A DNA stretch of 64,000 nt from the NCBI GenBank assembly GCA_018663505.1, contig JABJQG010000019.1:1-64000 (forward strand), given 5' to 3'. Of the stretch, positions 13,997 through 33,194 are shown piece after piece. Source of the DNA: Pseudobdellovibrionaceae bacterium. Lineage in GTDB: Bacteria > Bdellovibrionota > Bdellovibrionia > Bdellovibrionales > UBA1609. Within the stretch, counting starts at the first letter, position 1, and each line of letters opens with the position of its first letter. The notes beneath the pieces were generated by a model, which ran no database searches, was not told the origin of the DNA, and saw nothing but the letters and a program-made list of their open reading frames with translations. Made by a program: the position numbers and the translations under genes.

Positions 13997-14114
13997 ATTC
14001 TCATTAAAATGAGAATATTGGACGAAAAGCCTGATATTAGTGTTAATTCTCATTTTAATGAGAATATATGGAAAAATAGGTGGAAACTCTACTAATTCTC
14101 AGTATAATGAGAAC
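13997..14114. promoter_or_regulatory. Three operators upstream of hipB
   Basis: Three inverted repeats of the form ATTCTCATTAAAATGAGAAT lie at 13997-14016, 14046-14065 and 14095-14114. The first two are perfect palindromes apart from the central A/T bases; the third is a slightly decayed copy. Their starts are exactly 49 bases apart each time. HipB-type antitoxins bind such palindromes and repress their own operon, so these are the likely autoregulatory sites. The regular spacing suggests cooperative binding or DNA bending. Confidence 0.8.
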
Positions 14115-14127
14115 TAATGGAGCTGAA

Positions 14128-14358
14128 ATGGAAGAAAACAAAGATATAACTATTAAAGATACTCAGTTTATTGGTCGTCTCATTAAAAAGCGCCGTAAGG
14201 AGCTTGGTATTACTCAGAGGCAATTAGCAGATATGTCAGGGCTTTCTTTTAATGGGATAAGCCAAGTAGAGCTAGGTCGCATGGAAATACGCATCTCAAG
14301 CTTGATTAAGATTGGTCAGCTTTTAGGCCTCAAACTAAAAATTGAAGTGGAAAACTAA
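14128..14358 (+). CDS. hipB: HipB-like antitoxin, Xre-type repressor
   Basis: 76 residues from ATG 14128, chosen because GGAG lies 7 bases upstream and because starts at 14080 or 14107 would put the third operator or its edge inside the coding sequence. The helix-turn-helix covers about residues 18-70: IKKRRKELGITQRQLADMSG, then the recognition helix around SFNGISQVELGR. HipB proteins neutralise the HipA kinase and repress the operon. The gene ends 3 bases before hipA. The long evenly spaced operator array upstream fits this role. Confidence 0.85.
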   Translation: MEENKDITIKDTQFIGRLIKKRRKELGITQRQLADMSGLSFNGISQVELGRMEIRISSLIKIGQLLGLKLKIEVEN

Positions 14359-18291: not shown

Positions 18292-18936
18292 ATGCCTAGA
18301 AAAAAACCAAATTATAATCCGGAACATCCTATTCACATCACTGCTCGTTGTATTAACCAAATGTGGTTTGACTTACCCTTAGAAGAGGTCTGGATAATTT
18401 TTTCCAATTATTTATATTTTATATCACATGCTTTTAATATTGAAATCATTTCTTTTGTTTTGATGAATAATCATTTTCACTTGTTGGTGCACGATAGTAA
18501 TTTTAATATTTCAAAAGCAATGTGTTATTTTATGAGGGAAGTAAGTAAATCAATCACCATTGATACTAAAAGAGTAAATCAAACATTTGGTGGGCCTTTT
18601 CACCCTACAGTGATTGGCTCAACAGAGCATCTATTGAATGTTTATAAGTATATCTATCAAAATCCTTTAAGAGCCAAAATAGTTAGTCGAGCGGAGGAGT
18701 ATAAGTTCTCGACCTTACATGGGATACTTGGGTTAAGCCAAGCAACTATTCCGGTGACCTCCAGGTATGACAATCTTTTTCCTTTAGTGCAAGACACTAG
18801 CCATACCTTAAGTTGGCTTAATCATCATTATGACGACATTGAAATTGATCTTATTCGCAAAGGATTAAGAAGCCACCATTTTAAAATTGGAAAAAAAAGA
18901 AGTTGTCGTACCAAAATTGATTTGCCTAGCATTTGA
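18292..18936 (+). CDS. Y1 (HUH) transposase, RAYT family
   Basis: 214 residues from ATG 18292, chosen because family members start with M-P-R-K-K; ATG 18268 would add eight residues. The HUH metal-binding motif is NNHFHLLVH (about 58-66), and the catalytic Tyr lies in NVYKYIYQNPLRA (about 122-134). HITARC near the N terminus and MREVSKSI are typical of the family. Such enzymes nick single-stranded hairpins and move REP sequences, or are domesticated. The gene is intact with no frameshift and sits centrally between 38-bp inverted repeats. Confidence 0.92.
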   Translation: MPRKKPNYNPEHPIHITARCINQMWFDLPLEEVWIIFSNYLYFISHAFNIEIISFVLMNNHFHLLVHDSNFNISKAMCYFMREVSKSITIDTKRVNQTFGGPFHPTVIGSTEHLLNVYKYIYQNPLRAKIVSRAEEYKFSTLHGILGLSQATIPVTSRYDNLFPLVQDTSHTLSWLNHHYDDIEIDLIRKGLRSHHFKIGKKRSCRTKIDLPSI

Positions 18937-26331: not shown

Positions 26332-27606
26332 ATGGCACTTTCAAATAAGCCCTATAAGGGCACTCGAGATTTTTTTCCTCCAGATATGCGTATTCATAAC
26401 GCTATTTTTTCCAGTTTATCTAAGGTAGTGGAAAATTATGGTTATGAACAATATAATGGCCCAATGCTAGAGTCCTTCGATCTTTATGCTGCTAAGACAG
26501 GTGAAGAAATTGTAAACGCTCAGCTTTATCACTTTGAAGATCGTGGAAAAAGAAGGGTGGCTGTGCGCCCAGAAATGACGCCTACATTAGCTCGAATGGT
26601 TTCTCAGCAGGTACAAGAATTACCTAAACCCATACGCTGGTTCAGCCTCCCTAATTTATGGCGCTATGAGCGGCCTCAGAGGGGTCGATTAAGAGAACAT
26701 TGGCAATTGAATGTGGATTTACTGGGGGGCGACACTCGCTTGGCTGATAGTGAAATTTTATCTCTAGCTTTTAACTTGATTAGTGAGTTTAAAGGTCAAG
26801 AGCACATTCAAATTCATATAAACCATCGTGGATTGGTAAATTTTGTTTTTCAAGACCAATTGGGTTTAAGTGCTGAACAGGCTCTACAGGTTTCCAAAGC
26901 TGTGGATGCACGACCAAAAATTGGCGAGGCAGCTTATGAAAAGTGGTTATCTGATCAAGGTGTAAATAGTGATCAAGCTATAAAGCTAGAAGCATTTTTT
27001 AAATCTGATTTTACAAGTTTATGTGAGAATTACCCCTGTGAAGCCATAGATGATCTTAAGGCTATTTTTAAAAACTTAGAATGCTCGGAGGCTCATAAAG
27101 TTTTAATTTTTGACCCAATGATTATGCGAGGCCTTGATTATTATACGGGCTTGGTTTTTGAGATCTTTGATACTTCTCCAGAGAACAACAGAGCTATGTT
27201 TGGTGGGGGACGATACGATAATTTGATTGGTCTTTTTGGAAAGCATCAGCTCTCTGGGGTGGGTTTTGGAATGGGCGATGTTACTTTGAGAAATTTTTTA
27301 GAAACTCATAAACTTATGCCCGCCATTCAGGCTCCTATCGATTATTTTGTGGCGTTAACAAATAAGGACTATTGGTCTTATTCCCAGCAAATATGTAAGG
27401 TTTTACGAGTTAAAGGCCATAGTGTATATGAGGCTTTAAGTGATGTTAAGCTTGCCAATCAATTTAAGCAGGCCCATAAACTGAATTCTAAATTTGTTAT
27501 TATTGTTGGTGAAGACGAGGTGGCTCAAAAACAGTTTCAGCTGAAAGAGTTGGCCACTGGAGAGCAAAAAACATACGCCTTGAGCGAGCTCGAGGCCTTG
27601 GACTAA
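26332..27606 (+). CDS. hisS: Histidyl-tRNA synthetase
   Basis: 424 residues, normal length for a class II HisRS. Motif 1 (YEQYNGPMLESFDLY), motif 2 (RWFSLPNLWRYERPQRGRLREHWQ) and the histidine signatures GLDYYTGLVFE and the motif 3 region MFGGGRYDNLIGLFG are present, followed by the anticodon-binding domain (about 325-424). Charges tRNA-His. The last 14 bases, including the stop, are the outer edge of a 341-bp nested palindrome, and an inverted copy of those 14 bases lies at 27920-27933. The gene itself looks complete. Confidence 0.95.
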   Translation: MALSNKPYKGTRDFFPPDMRIHNAIFSSLSKVVENYGYEQYNGPMLESFDLYAAKTGEEIVNAQLYHFEDRGKRRVAVRPEMTPTLARMVSQQVQELPKPIRWFSLPNLWRYERPQRGRLREHWQLNVDLLGGDTRLADSEILSLAFNLISEFKGQEHIQIHINHRGLVNFVFQDQLGLSAEQALQVSKAVDARPKIGEAAYEKWLSDQGVNSDQAIKLEAFFKSDFTSLCENYPCEAIDDLKAIFKNLECSEAHKVLIFDPMIMRGLDYYTGLVFEIFDTSPENNRAMFGGGRYDNLIGLFGKHQLSGVGFGMGDVTLRNFLETHKLMPAIQAPIDYFVALTNKDYWSYSQQICKVLRVKGHSVYEALSDVKLANQFKQAHKLNSKFVIIVGEDEVAQKQFQLKELATGEQKTYALSELEALD

Positions 27607-27933
27607 CTCACAATTTCTAAATTACGGAGCATTCTTGTTTTTTCAGTTAACAGGTGAACACAAAAATGCTCAAACATGCGGTGCTCATTAAAAATTAAGC
27701 AATAAGCCTCCATTTCTATTTTTTTAACAGCCACACTCAAAGGCTCAAACATGCGGTTCTCGCCCTTCGGGCTGCGATCCGAACTCGCTTTGCGCGCGGC
27801 TGTTAAAAAAATAGAAATGGAGGCTTATTGCTTAATTTTGAACTCCGCTCCGAACTCGCTTTTTGCGCTCACCTGTTAACTGAAAAAACAAGAATGCTCC
27901 GTAATTTAGAAATTGTGAGTTAGTCCAAGGCCT
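27593..27933. repeat. Nested long inverted repeat starting inside hisS
   Basis: The outer arms (27593-27657 and 27869-27933) are a perfect 65-bp inverted repeat. Inside, 27691-27732 and 27798-27839 are a second perfect 42-bp inverted repeat. Two 14-base motifs occur twice as direct repeats: GCTCAAACATGCGG (27668-27681 and 27743-27756) and TCCGAACTCGCTTT (27778-27791 and 27849-27862). So the same core appears once broken between outer and inner arms and once in the central loop, as if one element with its arms had entered another. In RNA it would fold into a very long hairpin that ends hisS transcription. Confidence 0.92.
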
Positions 27934-27985
27934 TTGTCTGGTTGCTAGAGTTGTTATGCCTGTGCTTGTATTTTAGTATAAGTGT

Positions 27986-32926: not shown

Positions 32927-33194
32927 TGGGTGGGTAGTTTTGAGCTACGGATTTTCGATTGGAACCTTTCCATCCATGGGAAATCAGGGGCTAGCCGCCC
33001 CTGAAACCCGCAATTCTTCAACATCGTGTTGAAGAATTTACAGTAAATTAAATATTTTCTGGTCACTAGAAGTTTATTTTATAGATTCCCCCACACGACG
33101 TGGGGGAATTGGTAGGCTCGGGCCGCCATAGGCCCGATCTCCCATGGATGGAAAGGTTCCAATTGGAAATCCGTAGCTCAAAACTACCTACCCA
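32927..33194. repeat. Structured cloverleaf-like repeat, complete copy 2
   Basis: A closing inverted repeat (32927-32981 with 33140-33194, 52 of 55 pairs) encloses four hairpins in a row: 32984-33004 (8-bp stem), 33013-33037 (11 bp), 33085-33109 (10 bp) and 33118-33137 (7 bp, TCGGGCC/GGCCCGA). The stretch 32966-33127 is the reverse complement of the copy at 85-247. The outer 39 bases of each arm are not in that copy, so they look specific to this locus. Either DNA strand, or its RNA, could fold into a four-armed cross. It fills the gap between the ClC gene and the DUF493 gene. Confidence 0.93.

Follow-up and report, generated by a model that had tools for sequence, protein, structure and literature searches.

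Does the palindrome downstream of hisS carry an inverted copy of the end of that gene, and if so, how might such a structure arise and persist? The locus lies at positions 27593-27933 of a 64,000-nt stretch of DNA (hereafter the window) from the 3.78-Mb genome of a Bdellovibrionales relative, a draft of 72 contigs. A preliminary description had reported here two nested perfect inverted repeats, together with a pair of 14-base motifs shared by an outer and an inner core, and had read them as one core-plus-arms element sitting within another, with insertion creating an inverted duplication of the flanking DNA.

Anatomy of the palindrome downstream of hisS

The reported anatomy was recovered in every particular. 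The outer arms form an inverted repeat that is perfect over 65 bp (74 nt at 97%), the inner arms one that is perfect over 42 bp (55 nt at 93%), and the motifs GCTCAAACATGCGG (starting at 27668 and 27743) and TCCGAACTCGCTTT (starting at 27778 and 27849) have no further exact matches in the window. When positions 27580-27950 were folded as single-stranded DNA, the energy was -140.7 kcal/mol, far below the average of -42.8 for shuffled sequences (z = -23.8), and none of 100 shuffles equalled it. The assignment of the upstream gene to HisS, made in the preliminary description, fits the pattern of matches, with homologues found in 55 of 59 related genomes. The parts of the locus are as follows:

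26332-27606, + strand: hisS (histidyl-tRNA synthetase, 424 aa), an open reading frame whose final 14 nt, stop codon included, lie within the outer left arm
27593-27657, + strand: outer left arm, perfect over 65 bp and reaching 27666 if two mismatches are allowed
27593-27610, + strand: outermost 18 bp of the outer left arm, made up of the hisS end (..A L D stop) and 4 nt; probably host DNA
27658-27690, + strand: outer core, left half, containing GCTCAAACATGCGG (27668-27681) and a partial core match at 27658-27686
27691-27732, + strand: inner left arm, perfect over 42 bp
27733-27797, + strand: inner core of 65 bp, multi-copy in the genome, with GCTCAAACATGCGG at 27743-27756, TCCGAACTCGCTTT at 27778-27791 and the small apical hairpin CGCCCTTCGGGCTGCG
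27798-27839, + strand: inner right arm, complementary to the inner left arm without a mismatch
27840-27868, + strand: outer core, right half, containing TCCGAACTCGCTTT (27849-27862)
27869-27933, + strand: outer right arm, perfect over 65 bp
27916-27933, - strand: inverted copy of 27593-27610, on the other side of the core

A dispersed family with conserved cores and private arms

The genome contains at least 42 copies of the core. A 66-bp core query gave 44 matches, which correspond to about 40 cores (including the degenerate copy L081) and four partial matches to the outer cores of nested copies; a looser core pattern added two further places, and an exact 14-mer occurs nine times genome-wide. 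The whole element measures roughly 150-165 bp, with a 65-bp core that carries the two conserved motifs and a small apical hairpin, and arms of about 50 bp on either side. Across the family nearly every copy has near-perfect arms, of 25-71 bp; in the 39 copies examined, L081 excepted, they are 31-71 bp long and nearly perfectly complementary. Subfamilies of the core are distinguished by the apical loop, and an identical 44-nt core is present in 10 copies.

Cores change slowly and arms fast: pairs of copies from one subfamily differ on average by 2.9% in the core and by 54% in the adjoining arm stretch, the latter figure being ungapped and thus inflated by indels. When 31 arms from both core families (the second is described below) were searched against the genome, each was found exactly twice, flanking its own core, and none had a third copy anywhere, so that capture of arms from other genomic loci was rejected. 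The arms are thus unique to each site, as the preliminary description had anticipated; copies sharing the same arms, as a fixed-length element would have, did not turn up among the 31, a weak family consensus notwithstanding. This consensus is suggested by the mean pairwise score of family 1 arms, which at 8.27 exceeds the 7.24 (sd 0.06) of shuffles that preserve base composition only. The similarity is seen within ~46 nt of the core anchor (7.51 versus 6.48, sd 0.07), with a weaker excess beyond it (4.54 versus 4.21, sd 0.09; 17 arms), and family 2 arms score above all 200 shuffles. The outer arm ends differ between copies, showing no conservation, and by eye no consistent direct repeats of the kind left by target-site duplication flank them, with element ends that can be placed only approximately.

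The nested arrangement recurs at four genomic places, one on contig C26, two on C27 and one on C54. The three copies on C26 and C27 have the same insertion point in the outer core and the C54 copy is more diverged; with at least three of the four inserted at one point, the composite is a repeated arrangement rather than a single accident. The inner arms of these three copies have both ends in common (AAAATTAAGCAAT .. AGCAGCC) and differ in the middle, their flank being the shared outer core. Between two nested copies the inner arms differ by nine substitutions and an indel, every one of them mirrored, whereas their 65-nt cores are one change apart (p = 0.0009 by Fisher's test; the remaining two pairs gave p = 0.014 and 0.38). 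Two nested copies lie 2.7 kb apart beside genes reading like gap, pgk and tpiA (L091; G000:C27:84500-91500).

Other repeats of this genome behave in the same way. A second core (ACAGCTCCTGCTTTGCTGGCATCACCC..), unrelated to the first and found adjoining one of its copies, occurs at eight places with 90-100% identity, six of them at 98-100%; in the six copies analysed the arms measure 53-64 bp and differ from copy to copy, and in three of the six they pair without a mismatch. A third, larger repeat, at 32927-33194 of the window, has arms of 55 bp with 3 mismatches around a 158-nt spacer with several small hairpins. Its interior is common to C27:7721-8004 (L239) and the outermost arms are unlike, and, with two copies only, it may show the private-arm pattern too. 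At and around 212-226 of the window, on the - strand, lies a truncated third copy of this interior, apparently armless. Elsewhere in the window, repeats of ATTCTCATTNNAATGAGAA at 13997-14110 precede a gene starting near 14130 and are perhaps the operators of a regulator.

Are the arms inserted with the core or copied from the host?

Since the 31 arms show no parent-child similarity despite identical cores, the arms must either evolve very rapidly or be made afresh when a copy inserts. In the latter case, snap-back synthesis primed at the hairpin of a mobile core, which would arrive with some donor arm, would copy the neighbouring host DNA across, and each new copy would start out with perfect arms of its own. 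This would explain why near-identical cores with private arms are found in unrelated repeats, why third copies of arms are absent and why arm length is greater where the core has changed less (rho = -0.40, p = 0.047); moreover, the ends of hisS and slt lie within arms. Nevertheless, we consider arm-making at insertion rather unlikely, as the arms share a family consensus, albeit a weak one, and the inner arms of nested copies are related to each other.

The position of the elements relative to genes speaks against it as well. They are placed mainly just 3' of stop codons, with one of the 46 examined lying inside a gene (hypF) and the remainder being intergenic. Of 44 gene-3'-end contexts, nine have an arm that extends over the stop codon or into the coding sequence, by at most 14 nt, and a single core lies less than 30 bp from a stop codon, although the copying of gene ends into arms would be harmless. 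With core-only insertion and cores spread evenly up to the 90th percentile (118 bp), the probability of finding none within 30 bp would be 2.5e-6, or roughly 4e-5 if the one case observed is allowed for. Core-only insertion is therefore unlikely.

The copy in hypF (L013), whose reading frame is open through the palindrome, offers evidence on both sides. The core and one arm together make 114 bp, which preserves the frame (38 codons), and the right arm has a coding signal, with a likelihood ratio of 87 and first place among all open arm frames of 46 elements; both observations would favour an arm made from host sequence. However, in a control over all arms, intergenic arms were also coding-like in some frame, which weakens the hypF signal, and hypF homologues are shorter at this place by about 54-60 residues, roughly the whole palindrome with both arms, and have no extra loop that could represent a native arm. 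Given that the control weakens the signal and the loop length of homologues points the opposite way, the right arm was dropped as proof of host copying. The end of the hypF arm does not significantly resemble the family arm end (p = 0.37). The palindrome is 163 bp long, which is not divisible by three, so that insertion of the whole would require its ends to be off by about a base. With this proviso, the homologue comparison leans towards insertion of the whole palindrome in hypF. We also considered whether lysA is truncated beside L253 and rejected this, as the LysA frames of relatives are also about 400 aa.

Taken together, these comparisons suggest that most of each arm belongs to what is inserted, and that at hisS and slt only about the outermost 14-18 bp look like an inverted copy of host DNA. 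HisS ends in ..LSELEALD* here and in ..LTKALN* in the nearest relative, a comparison which suggests that the gene has kept its native end and that the far arm contains the inverted copy, in line with the preliminary description. In a by-eye comparison of arm sequences, positions 27593-27610 are not part of the stretch with a likeness to other family arms; on the core side of these last 18 bp, the outer hisS arm does resemble them by eye (CAATTTC-TAAAT..CATTC, compare L083, L026 and L029). At L083, the outermost 17 bp of the arm contain the end of a convergent gene (..PES*), which from its sequence we take to be slt, encoding a lytic transglycosylase; the alignments of relatives end a few residues before the C-terminus, and its native end is putative. 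At L249, L253, L033 and L018, too, arms extend up to a stop codon or a little way over it. Of the proposals that the right arm copies the end of hisS and that insertion duplicates flanking DNA in inverted orientation, what survives is the outermost base pairs at hisS (14-18 bp, probably, from the HisS ends compared) and at slt, and what does not is the whole arm as a flanking copy, in view of the consensus, the nested arms, hypF and the distances to stop codons. That a short core spreads by making a private inverted repeat at each site through snap-back copying of local DNA, with inverted duplication of the target as part of insertion, seems unlikely to us; if true, the elements would represent mobile DNA of an unusual kind.

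Proposed maintenance of the arms by template switching

The account that fits best, and towards which we incline, is a dispersed palindromic repeat with arms maintained by DNA template switching. The stem would fold, and replication or repair would copy one arm onto the other (quasipalindrome correction), such that the arms would change in concert through template switching and pairing would stay near-perfect. The stem could also lengthen by a few bases into flanking DNA, for instance into the end of hisS. The single-stranded core would escape correction, and would be conserved because it is needed for spread or is useful to the host. Template switching in hairpins creates and maintains perfect stems (PMC8794818), and the concerted arms of Nematomorpha mitochondria have been ascribed to conversion (PMC6649704). 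These papers back the process in general, and its operation at the present elements is what we infer.

Three points sit uneasily with this account. Outward extension predicts longer arms with age, yet arm length drops with core changes; in hypF the right arm has the look of native coding DNA; and the slowly changing core needs a separate explanation. The central puzzle is the combination of identical cores with unlike arms, which implies either that the core is strongly constrained at old sites or that the arms are rewritten on moving, and the weak negative correlation favours, by a little, arms rewritten when a copy moves.

Could the pairing instead be kept by selection on RNA, with the element serving as an mRNA 3'-end hairpin and compensatory changes preserving the pairing of the transcript? 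The location of most copies just after stop codons would suit such a role, 17 of the 22 one-sided cases have a core that points the same way as the upstream gene (binomial p = 0.017), and the apical stems vary between subfamilies and genera yet still pair. However, distal of the core tip 18 of 1753 paired arm positions are mismatched (~1%); G.T accounts for 4 of these on the core strand, and another 6 would read as G.U in a transcript of the opposite strand, where a stem held together by RNA selection would be expected to have far more. With so few mismatches and G.U nearly missing, pairing appears to be maintained at the DNA level; stems of 50 bp with ~1% mismatch are also beyond what an RNA would need, and arms that enter the coding end of hisS are left unexplained. 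We thus regard selection on RNA as quite improbable as the cause of arm perfection, and it may act on the core instead. Membership of a known RNA family was rejected, since Rfam 15 gave no match at the gathering score and only sub-threshold generic hairpins.

Finally, inverted chimeras from assembly or amplification, conceivable in a draft genome, are highly improbable, given that the same core sits at the apex in dozens of sites, that hypF stays in frame through its palindrome, that the same core motifs lie in inverted repeats of separately assembled related genomes, and that an arbitrary 385-kb sample of other sequence has only 8 inverted repeats with arms of at least 22 bp, so that palindromes of this kind are not background.

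Distribution among relatives and candidate enzymes

In a strict-pattern search of 141 genomes of the order, the core motif pair was confined to the window's own family, and a scan of 84,980 species with a strict pattern, from which records near the window's genome may be excluded, found one marine Bdellovibrionales assembly. The core had no match in plasmids or phages, and a literature search with the motif strings gave only primers and other chance matches among the records listed. Several genera have amplified core relatives with a different apical loop. In two of these genomes (G131 and G013) arm length is about 20-30 bp, and the arms are recognisably common between copies, often with one or two mismatches, which indicates that strongly private arms are a trait of the present genome, and possibly also of individual copies in G133 and G132. 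In G131, core relatives also form a tandem array with a period of ~130 bp (L174; G131:C34:4550-5032). An empty-site comparison in congeneric species of related genera was abandoned, as these are too diverged (~67-69% DNA identity).

As for enzymes that might be involved, PF01797 (Y1 transposase) has 10 matches in this genome and none in G013, G028, G137, G131, G132 or G001. All six have amplified core relatives, and a Y1/RAYT transposase was for that reason rejected as the mobiliser. In the window, a Y1_Tnp (PF01797) match at 18400-18654 (+ strand) falls in a 225-aa frame that is possibly a RAYT-like gene. In E. coli, losing the hairpin nuclease SbcCD helps long palindromes survive. Using one profile on draft genomes, SbcD was matched above the cut-off in 0 of 47 family genomes compared to 13 of 14 controls. 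As this lack would be family-wide, it cannot explain what sets this genome apart, and SbcCD loss was rejected as the reason for its peculiarity.

Comparison with known systems

By form rather than by sequence relation, the repeat is comparable to the Rickettsia palindromic elements (RPE), palindromic repeats described in PMC10969869. Both are non-coding palindromic repeats of ~150 bp that are present in dozens per genome and can reside in frame within a gene (here hypF), and the hisS-type element has the size and copy number of an RPE (about 100-160 bp, many copies). Frequent in-frame insertion into genes, a trait of RPE, is not seen here, where hypF is the one case among 46, and RPE families have a conserved sequence along the element (PMC10969869), whereas here the arms are private to each copy.

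REP/BIME elements and MITEs are likewise short dispersed intergenic palindromes, often 3' of genes, but their stems or terminal repeats are conserved, whereas in hisS-type elements the stems are the variable part; MITEs have conserved terminal inverted repeats that match those of a transposase-bearing element, and here the outer arm ends vary between copies. REP elements with a RAYT (TnpA-REP) are, according to PMC3733652, palindromes of 20-40 bp with a GTAG or CGTC tag, which differ from the present elements of about 150-165 bp with unrelated ends, and the Y1 transposase expected in genomes with amplified copies is missing from six relatives. The coding palindromes of Nematomorpha mitochondria are alike in their perfect inverted repeats, concerted arms and few imperfect copies (PMC6649704), but they lie in eukaryotic mitochondrial genes, have no shared core and are not a dispersed repeat.

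With about 50 natural replicates and no fewer than two unrelated cores within a single genome, the present elements offer a changing stem that stays perfectly paired, and so would allow one to measure in bacteria whether DNA template switching or RNA selection is the source of concerted stem evolution. To our knowledge, template switching has been described for single sites and RNA genes, and not as shaping a dispersed repeat with a fixed core. Quasipalindrome correction and template switching are expected to leave perfect stems, mirrored changes and extended stems as their footprints (PMC8794818, PMC7202029), and the near-perfect arms and mirrored differences between related copies found here are those of a template-switched quasipalindrome.
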